IMG/VR virus record: IMGVR_UViG_3300049919_000418
Span: 1 to 64,000 of that record
Strand: one strand, 5' to 3'
DNA: 64,000 bases
Source of the DNA: a virus
Part shown: positions 4,617 through 47,469 of the stretch, piece by piece
Position numbering within the stretch: the stretch's first letter is position 1
Layout: the number at the start of each line of letters is the position of its first letter
The notes under the pieces: model-generated
What the model was told of the DNA's origin: nothing
The model's input: only the letters and a program-made list of their open reading frames with translations
Databases searched by the model: none
Position numbers and translations under genes: made by a program

Positions 4617-5561
4617 ATGGATTTTACATGCAAAATATGCGGCCTAGGGTTCAATTCCTATCGGAGCCTACACAATCATTTGGCCAAGGTTGAGAATACG
4701 GCTCAAAAGGAATATTATGAAAAATACTTCCCGAAGTTTGACCTTTTCAACGGAAACCCGATTCCCTTTTCAAGGGTTGAAGATTATTCCACTCGACTTT
4801 TCATAGATAAGCGGTCTGAGTTCGCCTATCTTAGGCGCAATGGGCTACAGGCGGTTTCTGGAGACGTTTTAATGAAGCAGTTGGCCGACTGCTCCGCAAA
4901 ATCAAGAGGAAGGCTTCCAACATACTGTGAGTGGAGGTCTTCAAAAAACCTACGCTACGATTTCATGGACAAGGAGGGTTTTTTCCTTGAGTTTGTTGAG
5001 CGGGCGCGGGCGAATGGTATTAATTCTAATTTTGATTATTCCGCTCGTTGGTTGCAGTTTGAATCCAAAGAATGCGAAATTCTTGTTGATACCCGGGAGC
5101 AACAACCCCTTTTTGATTGTGAAAAAACTACAATTAATGTTGGGGACTACACACTAAGTAAAGAAAACTACAACGGAGTTCATGTTGACCGTAAATCCAA
5201 AGCGGACTTTATCGGAACCTTTACAAAGGGGTTGGATAGGTTTAGAAAAGAGTGCGAAAAAGCACGGGCTATGGATATAACTATTGTAGTCTTAATAGAG
5301 GAAACATATCAAAAATGCTTCACTTATCTTCCTTTAAAATTTACAAAACAAAAAGTTACAGGTGAGAGTGCGTTTCATGGGTTGCGTAAAATTTCCCGCG
5401 AATTCCCGGAGGTTCAATTTTTGTTTGTTGATGGGAGGGAAGAGGCAAAAGAATATATTAAAATGCTTTTAAATAATAAAAACATAATCGAATCGGTAGA
5501 TCTTCAGTTCATGTATGAGCTTGGGGAGCTTGATATTAAAATTGTGGAGGACTCATTATAA
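4617..5561 (+). CDS. Zinc-finger plus ERCC4-type nuclease-like protein
   Basis: 314 residues. The N-terminus has a zinc-finger-like FTCKICGLGFNSYRSLHNHL (C5, C8, H19, H21) followed by KEYYEKYF, a combination seen in phage DNA-binding proteins. Residues about 154-200 carry the ERCC4/XPF-type nuclease signature: ILVDTREQQPL (D158, E161), NVGDYTL (G-D-Y at 176-178) and VHVDRKSKADF (D191, R192, K193, D197). ERCC4 nucleases cut branched or flap DNA with the GD-x-ERK-x3-D motif; here D stands in place of E. It ends two bases before the large terminase start, so it may process DNA for packaging or resolve branches ahead of the motor. Role is inferred. Confidence 0.75.
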   Translation: MDFTCKICGLGFNSYRSLHNHLAKVENTAQKEYYEKYFPKFDLFNGNPIPFSRVEDYSTRLFIDKRSEFAYLRRNGLQAVSGDVLMKQLADCSAKSRGRLPTYCEWRSSKNLRYDFMDKEGFFLEFVERARANGINSNFDYSARWLQFESKECEILVDTREQQPLFDCEKTTINVGDYTLSKENYNGVHVDRKSKADFIGTFTKGLDRFRKECEKARAMDITIVVLIEETYQKCFTYLPLKFTKQKVTGESAFHGLRKISREFPEVQFLFVDGREEAKEYIKMLLNNKNIIESVDLQFMYELGELDIKIVEDSL

Positions 5562-5562
5562 T

Positions 5563-8271
5563 ATGGCTTGGCAGGAGGGTTACCATACTTTAAAAGATCC
5601 GTTCCTTACGGATACCAATAAAAAATTAGGATTAATTGAGGGGGAAATCAGTTCAAGAGACGCTCAGGTTTCTTTTGCAAAATTTTGCTGTGCAAATCCA
5701 GCTTTTGCAGCCAACCTTTTGATGGGCGTAGATATCTATCCGTTTCAAGATATTATGCTTCGAGCAATGAATAGCCGCGATTATTTTCTCGGTGTCGCAG
5801 GTCGAGGACTCGGGAAAACGACTATCGCGGCGATATTTGTTCCTCTTTATGCTATTTTTAACCCCGGAGTGACAATCGGGATTACCAGCTCAACTTTCCG
5901 TCAAGCAAGATCGATATTTTCTAAAATTGAAAGCATGGCATACTCTGAGGGGGGTAAATATCTTAGGCAGTGCTTGGTTGGCAAACCTAGCCATAGAAGC
6001 GATGCGTGGGAAATGCAAATTGGACAATCCAAGATTGTTGCAATTCCGCTTGGCTGTTTTGGCGCGAATAGTCGTGTTAGATCTGACCGGGGCCTTGTTA
6101 AAATTGAAGATTACGCAAAGGACGAACCCAATAGTTGGGAGAACTCCCCGCTATCTGTGGACACTTTAAAGTCTCGCTCTAGGGCTTCTCACGTTTTGAA
6201 CGCAGGAAAACAAAAGTGTTACGAAGTTATTACTAAAAAAGGCTTTAAGGTAACGGCTGGAGAAAACCATGAATTTTTAGCTTATAATGGGGAAGAATTT
6301 GTTTGGAAAATTTGCTCTCAGCTTAACTTTCAAGATAGAATTCTGCTTAGTAAGCAAAGGTATGAATGCTCGCAGCCTGAATACAATTTAGGGTATGATC
6401 TTGGATATAAATACGGTTCGGAGCAATTTTTCTCTTCAGTTCAAGAGGAGCGTATTTTCAGTTGCACCAAAGAGTTCGGAAAGGGCTTTCTATCTGGCCT
6501 TTTTGAAACAGGGGTAAAGTCTTTTAAGAGGGCGAGCGGCGATCAAGTTTGGACTCTTAAATTGGCTAACGAGGAAATTGCGTTGAACATTCAACAGTAT
6601 TTACTGTGCTTTGGCATCGTTTCTTCAAGAATAAGCAATTCAATTAAATTAAATTATAAAAATATCCGCGTCTTTGGTAAGGAAATTGGGGATGGTAAAA
6701 GCCATTTCTTTGAAAAACATGCCAAAAAAATCAAAGTTAGAGAAAGTGTAATTGCCGCCGCACCAAAAAGGAGGGTCAAGCATGGGTTCGGAAAAGACTT
6801 TTTTATTGATTGCGTTAGAAATGTTACTCCACTGGGTGAAAGGCAGACCTATGATCTGCGCGTTCCTGTAGAAAATAACTATATCGTAAATGGATTTTGT
6901 AGTCATAATTCAGGCGATAAAATTCGGGGATATCGTTTTAATTTATTGGTTATTGACGAACTTTTGCTTTTATCCGAAAAGGTCATCAATGAAGTTCTAC
7001 TTCCCTTCATGGCTATTCAGATTGATCCGCGTGAACGCCAAAAGGTTCGCGAGGCGGAAATCGAACTTATTGAGGCTGGGCTTATGAAGCCGGAAGACAG
7101 GACGATATTTCCGAATAATAAACTTATTGGGCTTACCTCCGCAAGTTATGAATTTGAATATCTTTATGAAATGTATAAAGACTATTCTGAGAAAATCAAC
7201 GATCAATCGGCCAAGAACGTTTCTCACGCTATCATGCAAATGAGTTGTGAAATGGCTCCGGTCGGCCTTTATGACGAAAGCAACGTTGAAAACGCCCGCA
7301 AAAGTTACTCCCGCGCTCAGTTCGACCGAGAATATATGGCCAAATTTACTGGCGACAGTTCGGGGTTCTACTCTGCAAAGAAGCTGTATGAAATAAGCCT
7401 TAAAAAGGGTGAAAGCCCAACAGTTAAAATTAAAGGGGACGGCGCGAAGAATTATTTGCTAGCTATTGACCCGAACTATGACGCGTCCGAAACGTCTGAC
7501 GATTTCGCAATGACAATTTTTGAGGTAGATGAGGACAACCAACATGGATATATGGTTCATGGTTATGCTGTCGCGTCTTGCTCCCTCTCTGAGCGAATGG
7601 ACTACGTTCGATATATTTTTGATAATTTTAACATTGTTTATATGATTGTCGATAAAGCGGGTGGAGCTAAATTTGTGAAGGATATTAATGATCTTGGGGT
7701 TTTACCGTTTGCTTTGGACTTTTTTGACGCTGAATTTGAAGTATTCGATGAGGAAGAAATGTTTAAGGCTCGCCAATCTTATAACAATGGGGGCAAAGTA
7801 AAGCGTATTGTTCATTCTCAGTATTTCAGCGCTCAGTGGATTAGAACGGCTAACGAAAGCCTTTCTGGCGCAATTGACGGCAAAAGAATTTGGTTTGCCG
7901 CGCCTACGGAAGCTGAGGGAGTTAATTTTGATGACATCCCTATCCAAAAACTCAAGTTCAACGAAACTGAGATTTACGGAAACAAAAAGGAAGATCTTGA
8001 AACCAAGCGAATCGACTTTATTGATAATCAGAGTTTGGTTATTAGTAAAACAAAAAATCAGTGCGCCCTTATTGAGGCTACAACAGGGGCAACCGGAACC
8101 CAAAGGTTTGACCTTCCGTCCAACCTTCAGAAACAGACGGGTCCAACAAAAACACGTAAAGACTCTTATTCCGCACTTGTTTTGGCTAACTGGGGATTAA
8201 TTTGTTACTTTGCCCTGCTTAAGACTCCTGAGAAGAAAAAAAACATGTTTAAGGCTAGATTTTTAGCTTAA
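5563..8271 (+). CDS. terL: Terminase large subunit, interrupted by an intein
   Basis: 902 residues as translated from ATG 5563; an in-frame ATG at 5515 lies inside the upstream gene. After removal of the 285-residue intein the packaging motor would be 617 residues, a normal size. Walker A is GRGLGKTT (about 80-87). The intein begins at C165, just after AIPLG, and the host protein resumes at SGDKIRGYRFNLLVIDE with the Walker B strand. The C-terminal half carries nuclease-like acidic motifs (LLAIDPNYDASETSDD; MIVDKAGG; RKDSYSALVLAN). The protein translocates DNA into the prohead and cuts concatemers. The Walker B region reads IDELLLL. Confidence 0.93.
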   Translation: MAWQEGYHTLKDPFLTDTNKKLGLIEGEISSRDAQVSFAKFCCANPAFAANLLMGVDIYPFQDIMLRAMNSRDYFLGVAGRGLGKTTIAAIFVPLYAIFNPGVTIGITSSTFRQARSIFSKIESMAYSEGGKYLRQCLVGKPSHRSDAWEMQIGQSKIVAIPLGCFGANSRVRSDRGLVKIEDYAKDEPNSWENSPLSVDTLKSRSRASHVLNAGKQKCYEVITKKGFKVTAGENHEFLAYNGEEFVWKICSQLNFQDRILLSKQRYECSQPEYNLGYDLGYKYGSEQFFSSVQEERIFSCTKEFGKGFLSGLFETGVKSFKRASGDQVWTLKLANEEIALNIQQYLLCFGIVSSRISNSIKLNYKNIRVFGKEIGDGKSHFFEKHAKKIKVRESVIAAAPKRRVKHGFGKDFFIDCVRNVTPLGERQTYDLRVPVENNYIVNGFCSHNSGDKIRGYRFNLLVIDELLLLSEKVINEVLLPFMAIQIDPRERQKVREAEIELIEAGLMKPEDRTIFPNNKLIGLTSASYEFEYLYEMYKDYSEKINDQSAKNVSHAIMQMSCEMAPVGLYDESNVENARKSYSRAQFDREYMAKFTGDSSGFYSAKKLYEISLKKGESPTVKIKGDGAKNYLLAIDPNYDASETSDDFAMTIFEVDEDNQHGYMVHGYAVASCSLSERMDYVRYIFDNFNIVYMIVDKAGGAKFVKDINDLGVLPFALDFFDAEFEVFDEEEMFKARQSYNNGGKVKRIVHSQYFSAQWIRTANESLSGAIDGKRIWFAAPTEAEGVNFDDIPIQKLKFNETEIYGNKKEDLETKRIDFIDNQSLVISKTKNQCALIEATTGATGTQRFDLPSNLQKQTGPTKTRKDSYSALVLANWGLICYFALLKTPEKKKNMFKARFLA
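6055..6909 (+). other. In-frame intein in the terminase, with decayed LAGLIDADG endonuclease
   Basis: 285 residues, starting at Cys (TGT at 6055) and ending FCSHN at 6909, followed by extein Ser (TCA at 6910). Splicing blocks are visible: N-terminal CFGANSRVRS, block-B-like VTAGENHEFL (about 66-75), block-F-like TYDLRVPVENNYIVNG (about 265-280), and terminal His-Asn. The middle (about 110-220) aligns by eye to a LAGLIDADG endonuclease: NLGYDLGYKYG and GFLSGLFETG. The second lacks the usual D-A-D-G acidic pair and the first has no acidic residue at its end, so cutting activity is probably lost. The intein splits the ATPase between its Walker motifs, so virion DNA packaging should depend on splicing. 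Confidence 0.92.
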
Positions 8272-8279
8272 TAAGAAAT

Positions 8280-8290
8280 TATTGGTGTAA
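8280..8290 (+). promoter_or_regulatory. GTGTAA late-promoter-like motif (copy 3)
   Basis: TATTGGTGTAA in the 29-base gap between terminase and portal. The core ends 10 bases before ATG 8301. Confidence 0.5.
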
Positions 8291-8300
8291 CTAAGTATAT

Positions 8301-10130
8301 ATGGAAATAATTAAGGAGGAAAATTTAATTAAGAAGAGCTTTAATTCGCCTAAAATGGTTGCCGACGCTTCCTTGTTCGGGATGGCGTCCTCAAGAGCGA
8401 AAAACAAGGCCGCTGGAGCAGCGGCGTCTTCTGATATTAGCGGACTGCTTTGCAATATAAGCAGCGGTGTAAGCCCCTTCGCTTATCAAAATGGCGATGT
8501 TAATGTTCGTGACGCGATTCTTCTTTGCCAAAAAGCGTATTGGAATGTTTCTATTTTTAAGTTATCTATTGATATTATGTCGGAGTTCTCCAACTCTCCC
8601 ATTCACTTTGTTGGCAAAAATAAGGCTTCTGTTCGATTCTTCGAGGATTGGTATGAGAAAATTGGGGGGTGGAATCTTGGGGACCAGTTCTTCCGCGAAC
8701 TTTTCAGAAGCAGTAATGTTATCCTTTATAAGGTTGAAGGCGAACTAAAAGATCTTAAAAATAAGCCATTGGCGAAAGTTCCTATTCGCTACATTGTCTT
8801 GAACCCTGCCGATATTGCTTGCGAATCATCTGCCAATTTCCTTCACGGATCATACAAAAAGATTTTAAATGATTACGAAGTTCAAGTTTTAAAAAATTCA
8901 ACCGATCCAAAAAACTTGGCTCTCAAAAAGAGCTTACCAAAGCAAGTTCAAGATGATATTTCAAAAGGCGTATCAACTGCCATACCGCTTAAACCGGACG
9001 AAATCATCACCGCTTTTTTTAAAAAACAAGACTACGAGCCAATGGCAGTGCCGATGTATTTTTCAGTTCTTTTTGATATTAATTTAAAATTAGAATTCAA
9101 AAAGGCGGAACAATTAATTTCCCGCGCTTGTGAGTATATGATTCTCCTTATCACGGTTGGAGATAAGGACAACGGTGTTGATGATGAGCTTGTTGAATCT
9201 ATTGAAACTCTTTTCAAGACAGAAAGTGTCGGACGGGTGCTAGTTTCCGACTATACGACTAAGATGGATTTCATTATTCCGGATCTTGCCAAAATTCTTG
9301 GCCCAACAAAGTATGAAGCGGTTAACGCGGATATTTCCAACGGACTAATGAACATTTTCTTCGGGGAACAAAAATATGCTGACTCCATGCTTAAAATGAA
9401 GGTTTTCCTTGAGAGGCTTAAAGAGTCGCGCAAAGTTTATTTAAATTCATTTTTGATTCCTGAAATGCAGAGGATCTCGAAAACACTAGGCTTCCGTGAG
9501 TGCCCAACCCCTGTTTTCGAGGACGTTGATCTTAAAGACGAGGTTGAATACATGAAACTTTATAACCGTTTGGCGGAACTTGGCTTCCTAACGAACGAAG
9601 AAACCATTACGGCCTATAAAACCCATGTTCTGCCAGAACAATATGATAGCATTGTTTCTCAGGAGAACTTTAAAACCAATAAGAAGAAGGGCCTTTACGA
9701 ACCTGTTGGAAAAAAAGACGCGCTAGCTAAACCCGCTGGAAGACCAACGGGAACGCCCCAAAAGCAAAAGAAAAAGAAGGTTACCCCTGTTGGAAGCGGA
9801 AGCGACAATACAAAAACCTACTCGGTCACCAAGCTAAAAGATGTTATTTATAAGGCGGACGAATTAATTGACTCCGTTATGGATTCCTATAAAACAAAAT
9901 TCAATATTTCCCGCGCAAGCAAAAAACATAAAGATATCGCCCGCAATACCGCGTTTGCAATTATTCAAAATGAAAAAATGGAGGATTGGACGAGATCGAT
10001 TGAAGCGTATATTGAAAACCCAATGAAGCAAGGCCCGATTGGCGAACTTGTCGTTGAGGAGGCTAGCAGCCATAGCCTTGATTTTCGCTCTGCAAGCTTA
10101 TTGTTTCACACGCTCGATGAATTGGTGTAA
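8301..10130 (+). CDS. Portal protein
   Basis: 609 residues. It lies directly after the large terminase and before the prohead protease, the standard place of the portal. The protein is helical and beta mixed, without membrane segments. It has a typical portal-like centre, including VPIRYIVLNPADIACES, FFKKQDYEPMAVPMYFSVLFDINLKLEFKKAEQ and long helices (FLERLKESRKVYLNSFLIPEMQRI). Family knowledge: twelve copies form the head-tail channel, the DNA entry point and the terminase dock. A lysine-rich linker (about residues 475-500) separates a C-terminal helical domain of about 100 residues. Identification rests mainly on position, size and overall pattern. Confidence 0.8.
   Translation: MEIIKEENLIKKSFNSPKMVADASLFGMASSRAKNKAAGAAASSDISGLLCNISSGVSPFAYQNGDVNVRDAILLCQKAYWNVSIFKLSIDIMSEFSNSPIHFVGKNKASVRFFEDWYEKIGGWNLGDQFFRELFRSSNVILYKVEGELKDLKNKPLAKVPIRYIVLNPADIACESSANFLHGSYKKILNDYEVQVLKNSTDPKNLALKKSLPKQVQDDISKGVSTAIPLKPDEIITAFFKKQDYEPMAVPMYFSVLFDINLKLEFKKAEQLISRACEYMILLITVGDKDNGVDDELVESIETLFKTESVGRVLVSDYTTKMDFIIPDLAKILGPTKYEAVNADISNGLMNIFFGEQKYADSMLKMKVFLERLKESRKVYLNSFLIPEMQRISKTLGFRECPTPVFEDVDLKDEVEYMKLYNRLAELGFLTNEETITAYKTHVLPEQYDSIVSQENFKTNKKKGLYEPVGKKDALAKPAGRPTGTPQKQKKKKVTPVGSGSDNTKTYSVTKLKDVIYKADELIDSVMDSYKTKFNISRASKKHKDIARNTAFAIIQNEKMEDWTRSIEAYIENPMKQGPIGELVVEEASSHSLDFRSASLLFHTLDELV
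10120..10130 (+). promoter_or_regulatory. GTGTAA late-promoter-like motif (copy 4), overlapping portal stop
   Basis: AATTGGTGTAA includes the last codons and stop of the portal gene (GTG TAA). The core ends 11 bases before ATG 10142, almost the same spacing as copies 1, 3 and 5. Confidence 0.42.
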
Positions 10131-42075: not shown

Positions 42076-43236
42076 TTATTTAATATCTGCCAATTTGAGA
42101 TAGATTTTTTGAGTTTGGATAGACACGCTATTTAACCAAATAATTTCCTCCGTTTTCTCGCCCATGATGAAAACAACGTCGCCCACATCGGGGTCAGGAA
42201 ACTTCGCTGCAAAATTATCGTATTTCTCACCAACAATCATCGCGTCGAAATGTCCCGTTTCATCTTGAACAACAAGCTTCAAATACTTGTTTCCGCGCCC
42301 GCTAACGCCTTTCTTGACTTCAGCAACCTCAAATACGCCCTCAATCTTTTGCTTCCCGTAGAGATTTTTGATTTGTTGGATATTTTTGATCGATGGGCGT
42401 TCGCTGACGAAAACACTTTTCAGGTTTGACGAATAGGAGAATCCGAGAATTTTCTTTTCGTAGTAATATGAAGCAAGTCGGGCGTTCTTTTTATTTTGGA
42501 AATAGATTTCTTTGTATTTCTCACAATGCTTGCGAATTGTCTCAAGCCTTGTTTTCGCCGCGATCTTTTTGCCCGCATCATTTACCCATGAATGAATGTT
42601 CTTCACCATAAGTAAAAGGTTATATTCATAATCCTGTCCGCGTTCAAGACAGAAAACTTTTTCCTTGTCGGTTAATTTACCCCATACTTGAGCTTCAAAA
42701 ACAAGGGTTTCCCGGTCTGGAGAAACGTTGCTTAACATTCCCGATTGGATCATGGCGCAAACAACACCAACGTTCAACTTGCAGTTTTCGGCAGCGCTGA
42801 AAACCTCAAACTTGTTCGTCTTTGGAGAAACCAAAAAGGATTTCATCGCAGAAAGTGATTTTTCACTCACACCCTTGATACTTGAGAACCCATAGCGAAT
42901 GTTGTCGCCTTCGATTGTAAAGTTTTCCTTACTATTGATTAGATCGGGCGGCAGCAACTTGATGTTGAAGAACGCTAGCTCTTGTTGGATACGAGCAACG
43001 TGGTCTTGACTGTCCGCCTTATTTTCAGCCATTCTAAGGCACTCAGTATAAAAGTGTTGTGGATACTTATATTTCAAATAAAGGGTTAGGGCCGAAAGGT
43101 GAGAATAGGCTGCGGCGTGAGAGTTAGAAACAACGATTCCGTTGGCATAAAAGTTATGATCCTTACTGTCTATTTCCAAGTCGTAGCTTTCCTTGTCCTC
43201 AATTTCTTTAAATGTAATAATTTTTATCTTTTTCAT
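42076..43236 (-). CDS. dnaE: DNA polymerase III alpha, C-terminal piece, preceded by C-half of split intein
   Basis: 386 residues from ATG 43236, overlapping the upstream TGA by one base (TGATG). A TTG further upstream (43251) is less likely. The first 38 residues are an intein C-half: MKKIKIITFKEIEDKESYDL (block F) to NGIVVSN (block G), then extein Ser in SHAAAYSHLSALTLYLKYKYP. This last segment is the conserved polymerase motif after FNK. The remaining 348 residues include helical thumb/tail parts and an OB-like domain (YLKLVVQDETGHFDAMIVG). It is the second of three polymerase-coding parts. Without trans-splicing or interaction with 43236-45557 the polymerase would be incomplete. Confidence 0.9.
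   Translation of the reverse strand: MKKIKIITFKEIEDKESYDLEIDSKDHNFYANGIVVSNSHAAAYSHLSALTLYLKYKYPQHFYTECLRMAENKADSQDHVARIQQELAFFNIKLLPPDLINSKENFTIEGDNIRYGFSSIKGVSEKSLSAMKSFLVSPKTNKFEVFSAAENCKLNVGVVCAMIQSGMLSNVSPDRETLVFEAQVWGKLTDKEKVFCLERGQDYEYNLLLMVKNIHSWVNDAGKKIAAKTRLETIRKHCEKYKEIYFQNKKNARLASYYYEKKILGFSYSSNLKSVFVSERPSIKNIQQIKNLYGKQKIEGVFEVAEVKKGVSGRGNKYLKLVVQDETGHFDAMIVGEKYDNFAAKFPDPDVGDVVFIMGEKTEEIIWLNSVSIQTQKIYLKLADIK
43123..43236 (-). other. Split intein, C-terminal half (IntC, 38 residues)
   Basis: MKKIKIITFK to NGIVVSN, with the terminal Asn directly before the extein Ser (codon 43122-43120). Length and position of the start methionine match known split DnaE IntC peptides such as that of Nostoc punctiforme (about 36 residues, also starting M-I-K-I). 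Penultimate residue is Ser, not the usual His, as in NpuDnaE, which ends ASN. Confidence 0.88.
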
Positions 43237-45557
43237 CAAATATGTTTCCAAGATTTGCGCTTACAAATAGACCAAGCATTATCATAGGTTATTCCGTGGC
43301 TAAGTGATATGTTTTTGATTCGTTCGCCAGATAAAAATTTTCTTCTAATTTCTATTACGTCCGAGTCCGCTAGCTTTGCCATGTTGTGTTTTGCGCCCCT
43401 TAAAACGGGTAGAGCGTTATTGTATTTATTTAAACCCGTGGAAAATGCATGTCGATTATTGTCCCTCACGCTAATCCATTCTAAATTTTCTACACAGTTG
43501 TTAGTTTTGTTTCCGTCTTTATGATTTACTGATGACAATTTTTTAACATTAGGCAGAAATGCTTCTGCAACAAGCCTATGGACAAAAAATCTTTTTCTTC
43601 CGTGTGTCGTGGTCTGCAACATGACTTTGTGATATCCGTCCTTTTCCAATTCAGGCTTCATTATTGACCCCCCATAGATTCTCAGTCCAACCCTCCCCCG
43701 TCTGGGGAGACTCTTGATGGTTCCCTTATTTGATATTTCATAATAATTTTTATACCCCATAACAGGCTTGAAAACCTCAAGGTTTTCGCAAATTACTTCT
43801 AAATCCTTTTCAACAATAAGCTTTATTGGTAGCATACCCTCGTCTGTTAGAAATTTATGCTCCATAGAACACTTTATTGTTCTTCCGTCCTCAAAAGTGA
43901 ATTCAAAAAGCTTGGATTCACTTCTCATTACATCAATCGCCTCTACCCAAACATGGCGCGAGTCTTCGACACTAAACCCTTTTACCCTCTCACCTATTGA
44001 AACGTCCCTAATTGGCTTATTTCCATTCGGGGTCTCGACTTCAGTTTCCGGCGAAAGGCATTTATTAAAGGAGTAGTTAGCCGACTCGTTTAGCAAGTCC
44101 CAAAAAAACTTCGCTAGCTCTTTTGGCATTTGTCTTTTCTCTGCCGCCGAAAAAATCTTAGCTTCCCACTCTTTTACTTTTTCAACCTGTTTTTTACCAA
44201 TGATTTTTCTTAAAACTTCCGCCTCATCAAGAGAGAAGCCAAAGACTTCTGAGCATATTTTCATCGTAGTCTCCTGATATATAGGAACTCCGTGGGTTTT
44301 TCCCAGTAGTTCGCGCATTTTTGCGTTGCCCCAATAGTCATTATATTCGTTTTTAATGTAATCATCCACGTATGCTAGGCTTCCGGGCCTTGCTAAAGAA
44401 ACCACTGCACTAAGCTCCTCCCAATTCTGAGGCTTTACTTTTTTAAATACCCTGTAGTTAGCATCCGCACCAATTTGGAACAATCCGTATGGCAAGTCGC
44501 CCTCTTCTGAAAGTTGATAGATTTCAGGGTTGTTGGGGTCAAAATTATCAAAACTAATTCCAAGACTTTTCTCAATTCTTGAAACAAGTGTTACGCCGTG
44601 AAGCCCAAGCAAGTCCAGCTTGATGGTTTCCTTCTGCGCGTAACTCATATCAAACGAGCAAACAACTTCGCCGTTTAGATCGAGTTCGCACGGAAGATAT
44701 TGGTCAAAATCATAATATCCGATAAGATACGCAGAAGCGTGACTGCCCTTTTGGCGCATCATGTCTTCAACAACCTTGGCGCACTCTATGATTTCAGGGT
44801 TCTCTTCCGCGAACTGCGCGAAAACCTCGCTCGCCTCGATACTATCAACAATGGAAAGCGGCTGGCCGTATTTGACCGGAATTGTTTTTGTTAAAACGTT
44901 CAGTTCGTCTTCTGTAAAGCCACCATGAATTTTACAAACGTCCTTAATGGCCGCTCGTGTTGCCAACGTAGAAATGGTTGGAAGCTTGCAGAATTTGCCG
45001 CTGTATTTATTTTTTAAGTAATTAATTACTTCTTCGCGTCGATCTGTGCAAATGTCAAGGTCAACGTCTGGAGCCATGTCGCCGTCAATGTATCTAACAC
45101 CATCAATGATTTGACTTTTCGCCCGCGTGCGAGATACAAACCGCTCAAAGATAAGGTCATTCTGAATTGGATCAATTCCTGTCACCCCAATGAGATACAA
45201 GATTAATGAACCCGCCGCGCTTCCACGGCCTTTTCCGACTGGAATATCATTTTCGTGGCAAAAGTTAATAACGTCCCAAATTAGAATAAAATAATCTGAA
45301 AAGCCAATCTCACTAACGATTTCATACTCGTATTTTAAACGAGTCATATACTCTTTTTTCCCAGTTAAGCCTTTTGACTTAATTCCGTTACGGCACAGAA
45401 TTTTAAGGAACTCTTCGTTGTCGGTGGACTCATCAATACCTAATTTCGCGTAATAGTGATGCGGAATGATAATTTTTGGCAACCTAACGCCTTTAACGTC
45501 GAAAGTTACGTCTTGAAAATCATCGAAAAATGAATCCTTAATTAAGGTCGAGGGCAT
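43236..45557 (-). CDS. dnaE: DNA polymerase III alpha, N-terminal/catalytic piece, fused to intein N-half and HNH endonuclease
   Basis: 773 residues. Residues 1-499 are polymerase: PVGKGRGSAAGSLILYLIG, the catalytic-type APDVDLDICTDRR (about 162-174), RQKGSHASAYLIG, LARPGSLAY and GVPIYQETTMKI. They end ESANYSFNK, which in intact polymerases is followed by SHAAAYS. Residues 500-593 are the intein N-half (CLSPETEVETPNG; GRTIKCSMEHKFL). Residues about 594-773 are a NUMOD4/HNH endonuclease (YYEISNKGTIKSL; VHRLVAEAFLP; VNHKDGNKTNN; ENLEWIS) with an HTH tail (LADSDVIEIRRKFLSGERIK). The PHP domain is missing from this chain and is encoded separately at 46735-47469. The ORF stops at TGA inside the next start. 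Confidence 0.92.
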   Translation of the reverse strand: MPSTLIKDSFFDDFQDVTFDVKGVRLPKIIIPHHYYAKLGIDESTDNEEFLKILCRNGIKSKGLTGKKEYMTRLKYEYEIVSEIGFSDYFILIWDVINFCHENDIPVGKGRGSAAGSLILYLIGVTGIDPIQNDLIFERFVSRTRAKSQIIDGVRYIDGDMAPDVDLDICTDRREEVINYLKNKYSGKFCKLPTISTLATRAAIKDVCKIHGGFTEDELNVLTKTIPVKYGQPLSIVDSIEASEVFAQFAEENPEIIECAKVVEDMMRQKGSHASAYLIGYYDFDQYLPCELDLNGEVVCSFDMSYAQKETIKLDLLGLHGVTLVSRIEKSLGISFDNFDPNNPEIYQLSEEGDLPYGLFQIGADANYRVFKKVKPQNWEELSAVVSLARPGSLAYVDDYIKNEYNDYWGNAKMRELLGKTHGVPIYQETTMKICSEVFGFSLDEAEVLRKIIGKKQVEKVKEWEAKIFSAAEKRQMPKELAKFFWDLLNESANYSFNKCLSPETEVETPNGNKPIRDVSIGERVKGFSVEDSRHVWVEAIDVMRSESKLFEFTFEDGRTIKCSMEHKFLTDEGMLPIKLIVEKDLEVICENLEVFKPVMGYKNYYEISNKGTIKSLPRRGRVGLRIYGGSIMKPELEKDGYHKVMLQTTTHGRKRFFVHRLVAEAFLPNVKKLSSVNHKDGNKTNNCVENLEWISVRDNNRHAFSTGLNKYNNALPVLRGAKHNMAKLADSDVIEIRRKFLSGERIKNISLSHGITYDNAWSICKRKSWKHI
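43239..44060 (-). other. Split intein N-half (IntN) with in-frame HNH homing endonuclease
   Basis: IntN runs from Cys500 (TGC, 44060-44058) to about residue 593 near 43779. The block-A start is CLSPETEVET, and a block-B-like IKCSMEHKFLTDEG follows. The endonuclease from about 43778 to 43239 carries NUMOD4-like and HNH-like motifs (H679 and N-rich KDGNKTNN). The stop follows immediately; no C-terminal intein blocks are present in this chain. Motif reading is by eye. Confidence 0.88.
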
Positions 45558-46151: not shown

Positions 46152-46751
46152 TTATAAAAGCTTGAATTTTTGATCTAGGAAAATCTCAAAAGACGGAGAT
46201 TTAACTTTATCGATTAAGCCAACCTTTACCGCGTTAGACGGAGAATAGTATAAGTCGGCGTTGCCATTTTGTTTCAATTCTTCTTTAAAAAACCCTTTTG
46301 AATTTCCAGAAAGCTTGTCAAGGATCGAGAATAATTTTTCGTTTAACTCAACAATATTGTCCATATCGTTAAGCATTTCACTGCTTTTGCCAAAGGTTCC
46401 TGCTGACATTTCATGAACTAAAACCGAACTGTTTTTTGAGGCAAATCGAAATCCCGGTGTTCCAGCGGCAAGAAGAACTGAACCGCATGAAAATGCTTTT
46501 GTGTTGGTGAAGGTGCAAATATTTTTATTTGACCTTTGGATAACGTCAAGCATGCCGAGAAGCGAGTAAACACAGCCTCCCGGAGAATCGATTTGTATCG
46601 GAATTATTTCTTGGCCAGAAGATTCGGCGTATATAAAATCTTTAGTGAATTCTTCAAGACTAATTTCGCTAAACTTTCTAACCAAAATTATTTTCGGATG
46701 CTTTTCAAGCGGGTCTGACTTTATATTAAAGTGTTTATTTAGAGTTAACAT
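46152..46751 (-). CDS. ClpP-like serine protease within the polymerase operon
   Basis: 199 residues. The ClpP/crotonase pattern is visible: PIQIDSPGGCVYSLLGMLDVI, catalytic-Ser block KAFSCGSVLLAAGTP, His block FASKNSSVLVHEMS and Asp-region YYSPSNAVKVGLIDKV. The nucleophile block reads A-F-S-C-G, versus A-A-S-M-G in typical ClpP. ClpP family proteins in phages usually mature capsids, but here the head protease is elsewhere and this gene lies between the PHP piece and the DnaQ exonuclease of the DNA polymerase. It may degrade host proteins or regulators. It overlaps the PHP gene by 17 bases. Confidence 0.87.
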   Translation of the reverse strand: MLTLNKHFNIKSDPLEKHPKIILVRKFSEISLEEFTKDFIYAESSGQEIIPIQIDSPGGCVYSLLGMLDVIQRSNKNICTFTNTKAFSCGSVLLAAGTPGFRFASKNSSVLVHEMSAGTFGKSSEMLNDMDNIVELNEKLFSILDKLSGNSKGFFKEELKQNGNADLYYSPSNAVKVGLIDKVKSPSFEIFLDQKFKLL

Positions 46752-47469
46752 GATTTAAGTAGCTTTCGAAGCTAAATTCCTTACTGTGACAATGATCAAA
46801 CATTGGATTTTCTAAACTTCTGTTTTTCCCTTTGTTCGAAAAATTCAAACAGCATCGGTAGGTTAACCAAGTTTTAAAGTCGGCGTTTTTTTCGTAAAAA
46901 ATACTTTTAACCAATGTTTTGTTATCTGGAATCTTCGAGGCAACAAGATCGTCAAATGGAAGTCCGTTGTCTTCGTGGAAAAATGTATGCTCAACGTTTC
47001 CAAATTCAGGCAGGCAAAAGGTTTCATACATTGTGTTGCGAAACAGGTAGCTATCGTAAAACGGGATTGCCAGTTTTAAGTTTTCTGTCCAATGCTTTTC
47101 CATAACCTCCGCTGTAATAAAACCGCCGAAATCAATGTTTGATACATTGTGGATCTTAATTAAATCTTTGTAGCCTTGTGTATTTTTTACAAAGACAACA
47201 ACCCTGTGCCAATTGTTTGCATTGTCAGGATTATTCTCGTGAACGAATCGATAGTTAAGCCCGAAACGCGGCGAAAGGCCAAGGGGAACCAAATTTTGAA
47301 ACAGTTCCGCAACTCCCGTCATTTTGGTATCAACCACAACCGGGCTTTGGATTTCGTTGTCGAGACAAATCGTAGCGATACTTTGCTTGTGATTTTTCAG
47401 AGCCTTTTCGGGCTTTTCAAATGTTAACAAACTTTTTCCACTGTATTGTGAATAGAAAATCGGGGTCAT
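46735..47469 (-). CDS. PHP-domain-like piece of DNA polymerase III alpha
   Basis: 244 residues. FYSQYSGKSLLTFEKPEKAL, MTGVAELFQNLVPLGLSPRFGLNYRFV and WHRVVVFVKNTQGYKDLIKI match, in order, the N-terminal PHP region of DNA polymerase III alpha (H-x-H-S-E-Y-S; G-V-x-E-F-Y-x-A-x-x-x-G-I-K-P-I-I-G; V-L-L-A-K-N-x-x-G-Y-x-N-L). The metal-binding His residues of the H-x-H start and of TDHG are absent (FYSQYS; DTKMTGV), so it is probably structural. The polymerase chain at 43236-45557 starts after this region, so PHP is supplied as a separate protein. Assignment is by pattern order. Confidence 0.7.
   Translation of the reverse strand: MTPIFYSQYSGKSLLTFEKPEKALKNHKQSIATICLDNEIQSPVVVDTKMTGVAELFQNLVPLGLSPRFGLNYRFVHENNPDNANNWHRVVVFVKNTQGYKDLIKIHNVSNIDFGGFITAEVMEKHWTENLKLAIPFYDSYLFRNTMYETFCLPEFGNVEHTFFHEDNGLPFDDLVASKIPDNKTLVKSIFYEKNADFKTWLTYRCCLNFSNKGKNRSLENPMFDHCHSKEFSFESYLNHVNSK

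Follow-up and report, generated by a model that had tools for sequence, protein, structure and literature searches.

The cyanobacterial DnaE split inteins, such as those of Npu and Ssp, are inserted at the codon Y|CFN and, to our knowledge, are without an endonuclease. In fractured genes, a conserved gene is broken into two ORFs by the halves of an intein (IntN and IntC), and the endonuclease is reportedly free-standing and often Vsr-like. As at the locus described here, the gene concerned is reportedly a phage replication gene, the intein is split, and an endonuclease is coded between its halves (Dassa et al. 2009, NAR 37:2560). Pseudomonas phage MIJ3 has a split PolB intein with an HNH endonuclease between the halves as its own ORF, orf154 (PMC6892783). 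The fractured-gene kind itself is known, and the new form here is a phage dnaE in which IntN and HNH are one chain and IntC is separate. An IntN-endonuclease fusion with a separate IntC was not reported among the literature matches listed, which is not proof of absence, and we therefore consider this layout a new form of fractured gene.

The locus lies on the minus strand of the window, that is, the whole stretch of 64,000 nucleotides analyzed (IMG/VR virus record IMGVR_UViG_3300049919_000418). ORF1 (45557..43236, 773 aa) encodes residues 1–499 of a phage DNA polymerase III alpha core of the DnaE type, ending SANYSFNK (44061..45557), followed by a 93-residue IntN whose Cys1 is Cys500, with its codon beginning at 44060 (43782..44060), and, in frame with it, a 181-residue NUMOD4/HNH endonuclease ending WKHI (43239..43781). 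ORF2 (43236..42076, 386 aa) comprises a 38-residue IntC (43123..43236) with its terminus VVSN at 43123, and then, from the +1 Ser onward, the remaining 348 polymerase residues, starting SHAAAYS (42079..43122). The polymerase is broken exactly between FNK and SHA by an insert of 938 bp in all. An earlier note on this DNA had proposed this order of parts, from polymerase up to SFNK through IntN, NUMOD4/HNH and a stop to an IntC ORF, and an extein sum of 847 residues; ORFs and profiles bear out the order, and 499 + 348 gives the sum. The same note placed the second start one base later, which is wrong, as the TGA of ORF1 and the ATG of ORF2 share a single base, A at 43236, within TGATG (43234..43238).

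Profile searches assigned each part. The polymerase matched DNA_pol3_alpha (5.7e-61) and DNA_pol3_finger (2.7e-29) above curated Pfam cut-offs, with HHH_6 above and an OB-fold (tRNA_anti-codon) below cut-off in its C-terminal part; the N-terminal part was delimited by profiles and by alignment to an intein-free relative (L082). The endonuclease part matched NUMOD4 (7.3e-12) and HNH_3 (9.4e-10), and the intein halves matched intein_Nterm (TIGR01445, 4.7e-8) and intein_Cterm (TIGR01443, 2e-6), all above curated cut-offs, while Pfam intein/Hint models matched IntN and IntC below cut-off only. Alignments and profiles place the class 1 Hint features (Cys1, block-B His, C-terminal Asn, and +1 nucleophile) on two chains, the SMEH motif of IntN being what we take to be block B. 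A Pfam profile search found no PHP domain in ORF1; outside the intein, a separate minus-strand ORF (46735..47469) has a weak PHP match (1.5e-4, under the curated cut-off), and a ClpP-like protease ORF (46152..46751, minus strand) adjoins the polymerase cluster.

The structure model of a contiguous cousin of the intein, L085 (pLDDT 97.0), is predicted to match gp41-1 (6riz, TMq 0.85) and Npu DnaE (4kl5_A, 0.88), which together appear to be the closest solved relatives of the window and L085 inteins. In the model of the window IntN-HNH chain (pLDDT 80.9, pTM 0.46), the IntN half resembles the native Npu DnaE split intein (4qfq_A) and the HNH half resembles I-HmuI (1u3e), although with a pTM of 0.46 the model does not fix the arrangement of the domains.

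Set against described systems, the window dnaE resembles fractured genes in that IntN and IntC divide a conserved gene into two ORFs, but its endonuclease is an HNH enzyme (NUMOD4 and HNH_3 above cut-off, with the I-HmuI fold match) read in the frame of IntN as one chain, rather than a free-standing protein as is reported for the fractured genes of Dassa et al. 2009. Nor is the locus a conventional full-length intein, in which a single ORF would hold all three of IntN, endonuclease, and IntC: the ORFs are separate and the HNH domain is in ORF1, the complete break that the earlier note had described. Phage MIJ3 shares with the window an intervening HNH and a phage DNA polymerase that carries a split intein, and differs in that the host protein is PolB, not DnaE, and the HNH is in a separate ORF (PMC6892783). 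With the cyanobacterial inteins, the window shares the host gene family and a break near the same place, but not the insertion codon, which is FNK|SHA rather than Y|CFN, three residues away. The FNK|SHA position, also claimed earlier, agrees with L082, the nearest intein-free relative among the matches listed (60% identical), which reads ANYSFNK-SHSAAYS unbroken; as L082 is contiguous across FNK|SH, the insertion point falls precisely at a codon boundary.

A single-base shift would join ORF1 and ORF2, and the frame of ORF2 stays open upstream of its ATG to a TTG at 43251, as would be expected if an assembly or sequencing error, or a programmed frameshift, lay across one continuous HNH intein. 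We regard this as extremely improbable. Contig L001, from a different record (possibly of the same sample), has the same two ORFs and identical bases there, with 1 difference in 10,822 bases. The layout recurs in two distant phage contigs: in L105, an MT-A70-like gene separates IntN-HNH from IntC, and in L265, IntN-HNH stops at a TGA 11 nt upstream of the ATG of a separate IntC. Assembly error is made unlikely by the same bases in L001 together with this recurrence, and sequencing error is disfavored by the same three contigs. Moreover, the stop in the window lies where the HNH usually ends, the ATG lies where IntC of the family usually starts, and no slippery heptamer is apparent by eye at the stop. 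The window locus is a real, unusual variant of a known arrangement in a virus of bacteria. The MT-A70-like methyltransferase gene of L105 (6424..6999), between the fused HNH and IntC, is interrupted by an in-frame TAG, presumably where a Trp codon is expected.

A first survey covered 176 loci with both polymerase parts, 139 of them distinct; 128 were empty and 11 had a gap, at another site in the case of L128. After further searches, profile scans covering the best 80 loci per scan brought the number of inteins classified at the site to 28, including L296 and leaving out L290, in which IntN is present and IntC was not found. Since each scan gave 80 loci at most, these counts describe a sample and are not frequencies. 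The site motif is mostly FN[KRA]|C...SN|SH, with FCK in L276, an initial Ser in L275 and L296, and a +1 Cys in L102. Among the matches listed, 24 of the 28 inteins are split and four are contiguous (L085, L091, L284, and L296). Four of the split inteins have no endonuclease (L030, L263, L270, and L318), one (L070) keeps a remnant of the gene found in L055, two have an antisense gap ORF (GIY-YIG in L106, no Pfam match in L092), and three have HNH fused to IntN (the window, L105, and L265). The other 14 have a same-strand free-standing ORF of 285–348 residues in the gap (L055, L097, L102, L104, L262, L264, L271, L272, L275, L276, L277, L280, L285, and L319), so that free-standing endonucleases between the halves do occur in relatives, for example L055, L097, and L104. 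Five of these 14 ORFs were scanned with Pfam: L055 and L276 matched NUMOD3 above cut-off and DUF559/MTES_1575 below it, L275 and L280 matched LAGLIDADG_3 above cut-off, and L285 matched DUF559/Vsr/MTES_1575, all under cut-off, "Vsr-like" being a label that rests on such weak, below-cut-off matches.

The inteins of the site also differ in state between near relatives. The contiguous L284 and the split L285 differ by a clean, endonuclease-sized insert of 896 bp, flanked by DNA 87% and 82% identical on the two sides; 37 IntC codons agree between the two, and 12 of 93 IntN codons differ. An ATG stands 38 codons upstream of the +1 residue in 20 of the 24 split inteins. Wherever the IntC ATG is clear, at 12 loci (L275 and L276, without a clear one, are not counted), the sense free-standing ORF overlaps it, by 4–61 nt and in seven cases by 37 nt. 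The 3' end of the inserted gene therefore carries the IntC start, and in the window a single base, the one shared within TGATG, serves this purpose. By eye, there is no strong Shine-Dalgarno sequence upstream of the window IntC ATG.

In the fused forms, NUMOD4 begins 1–3 residues past the usual IntN end, and the fusion points of the three elements are nearly identical; in many free-standing relatives, a Met lies a few residues upstream of NUMOD4, and the window HNH end, WKHI, resembles that of free-standing relatives such as L002 (WTHI). YGG occurs within the first 60 residues in all three fused HNHs and in 1 of 71 other rows, and each of the three has its best pairwise score with another of the three, ahead of 152 others. 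No fourth case was found among the best 80 loci of the scan with the three fused proteins. In a polymerase tree of 51 rows (four short ones dropped, empty rows thinned at 72% identity, and L092, L102, L275, L276, and L296 left out), which carries a long-branch warning for L277 with others, the fused cases fall in three places, each with an empty relative as its sister (L082, L208, and L247), and a single clade of the three is rejected (p-AU 0.011). The HNH trees, from which rows under 110–130 residues were left out, neither establish nor reject such a clade: p-AU was 0.444 for two fused rows, 0.574 for the three with the best 40 other rows, where the tree holding them together scored 5.2 log units higher, and 0.513 with the best 60, where the two scores were level and the window HNH formed a pair with a single non-fused row (99/92; its nearest by path is L003). 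An intein tree of 25 rows (without L275, L276, and L296) placed the three fused elements on one side (support 36/0), the intein being too short for resolution, and the three contiguous inteins in it do not form one clade (p-AU 6.7e-7).

With the fused elements apart in the polymerase tree and their HNH clade in this state, it is attractive, though unproven, to suppose that a single fused unit moved horizontally; the same distribution may also stem from separate fusion events, or from old inheritance followed by losses. That every fused case has an empty relative as its neighbor fits homing, and would also fit old inheritance with many losses. A source of the HNH within the same virus was considered and set aside, as the 166-kb record holds two other HNH_3 matches, one of them below cut-off, and by eye neither is closely alike; a DNA search of that record found no second copy of the fused HNH.

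Our preferred reading, which we consider probable, is a fractured phage dnaE with its endonuclease joined to IntN, giving a spliced polymerase and a homing HNH enzyme, the HNH gene having entered an already split intein. Two proteins would be made, Pol(1-499)-IntN-HNH and IntC-Pol(500-847), the latter probably by termination-reinitiation at TGATG. IntN and IntC would associate and splice in trans through Cys1, the C-terminal Asn, and the +1 Ser, yielding the 847-residue polymerase and setting IntN-HNH free. Trans-splicing, the need for which the earlier note had foreseen, is likely, and so is translational coupling. We infer that the enzyme cuts DNA and acts in homing: in co-infected cells it would probably cleave dnaE alleles that lack the intein, and repair of the cut would then copy the entire 938-bp insert, probably spreading it to other viruses. 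As to origin, the likeliest course appears to be that the intein was split first, that a NUMOD4/HNH gene then entered its gap, and that this gene was later joined to IntN. That course predicts the same HNH as a free-standing gene in some gap, and as none was found among the matches listed, this counts against it.

The opposite direction, in which an intein with its HNH in frame was at first contiguous and then broke where HNH meets IntC, so that the endonuclease is ancestral, would leave the present-day function the same. Phage L324 (MT835790) makes it possible: a terminase-like ORF there, a phage terminase by our reading, has IntN and then an in-frame HNH region as in the window, but, read by eye, with IntC in the same ORF (tblastn over 97% of the query, 26% identity). 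The mutual best matches of the three fused HNHs and their almost identical fusion points also speak for this history. None of the four contiguous inteins listed for the dnaE site carries an HNH, for which reason this history is not favored, and the sample is dominated by split forms without endonuclease or with other kinds of ORF; we consider it unlikely. Of the earlier note's intermediate with the endonuclease "still" attached, the attachment stands, and the "still", lent some weight by L324, finds no counterpart at the dnaE site. In named phages, one of 2,735 tblastn-matched records covers at least 80% of IntN-HNH, with IntN, HNH, and IntC in one ORF, and the fused/split layout was not found among those records. 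Decay, with the polymerase dead or working as two unspliced subunits, has precedents among relatives in the endonuclease remnant of L070 and the TAG-interrupted gene of L105; with both ORFs full length and the polymerase halves, Cys1, SMEH, DHNFY, SN, and +1 Ser all present and aligned, it seems to us very unlikely here.

Other inteins were noticed along the way. The same virus has a second, contiguous one in a terminase-like ORF (by eye; window 5515..8271, plus strand), with the C-terminal intein profile above cut-off. In L296, the ORF of the contiguous dnaE-site intein (5627..9577) stays open across a 260-aa ORF that is read in a different frame (7281..8063); synonymous shuffles give 16.6 expected stops, and 0 of 5000 remain open, the nested ORF being endonuclease-like by eye only, with no Pfam support. 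Nested out-of-frame HNH ORFs are clearer in two terminase cases: L053, where the intein, contiguous and lying in an ORF that looks terminase-like by eye (4896..7184), contains an ORF (5212..5808) matching HNH_3 slightly under cut-off (1.3e-4) and the intein frame was open in 0 of 20,000 synonymous shuffles, and, as the weaker of the two, L278 (intein ORF 5708..8017, HNH_3 ORF 7252..7896, 98 of 5000 shuffles open). In Lactobacillus phage CL2 (L411, 506..2590), the annotated terminase stops just upstream of an annotated HNH gene, and the intein match spans both.

More broadly, in a reading that we hold somewhat less likely than not, the dnaE codon can be pictured as a workshop in which inteins may cycle between contiguous and split states, with the endonuclease free-standing, antisense (L106), fused to IntN, or possibly overprinted (L296). 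In the fused form, splicing would release the homing enzyme, and that unit would have settled in three distant polymerase lineages. Natural split inteins with an endonuclease in the N-half chain mean that the break is separable from endonuclease capture, and a natural series at one site, including the L284/L285 pair, makes the origin of split inteins directly testable. The family also supplies new DnaE-type split inteins, with a 38-residue IntC, for protein ligation tests. If the proposed function of the fused form is true, its homing enzyme would be set free by trans-splicing itself.
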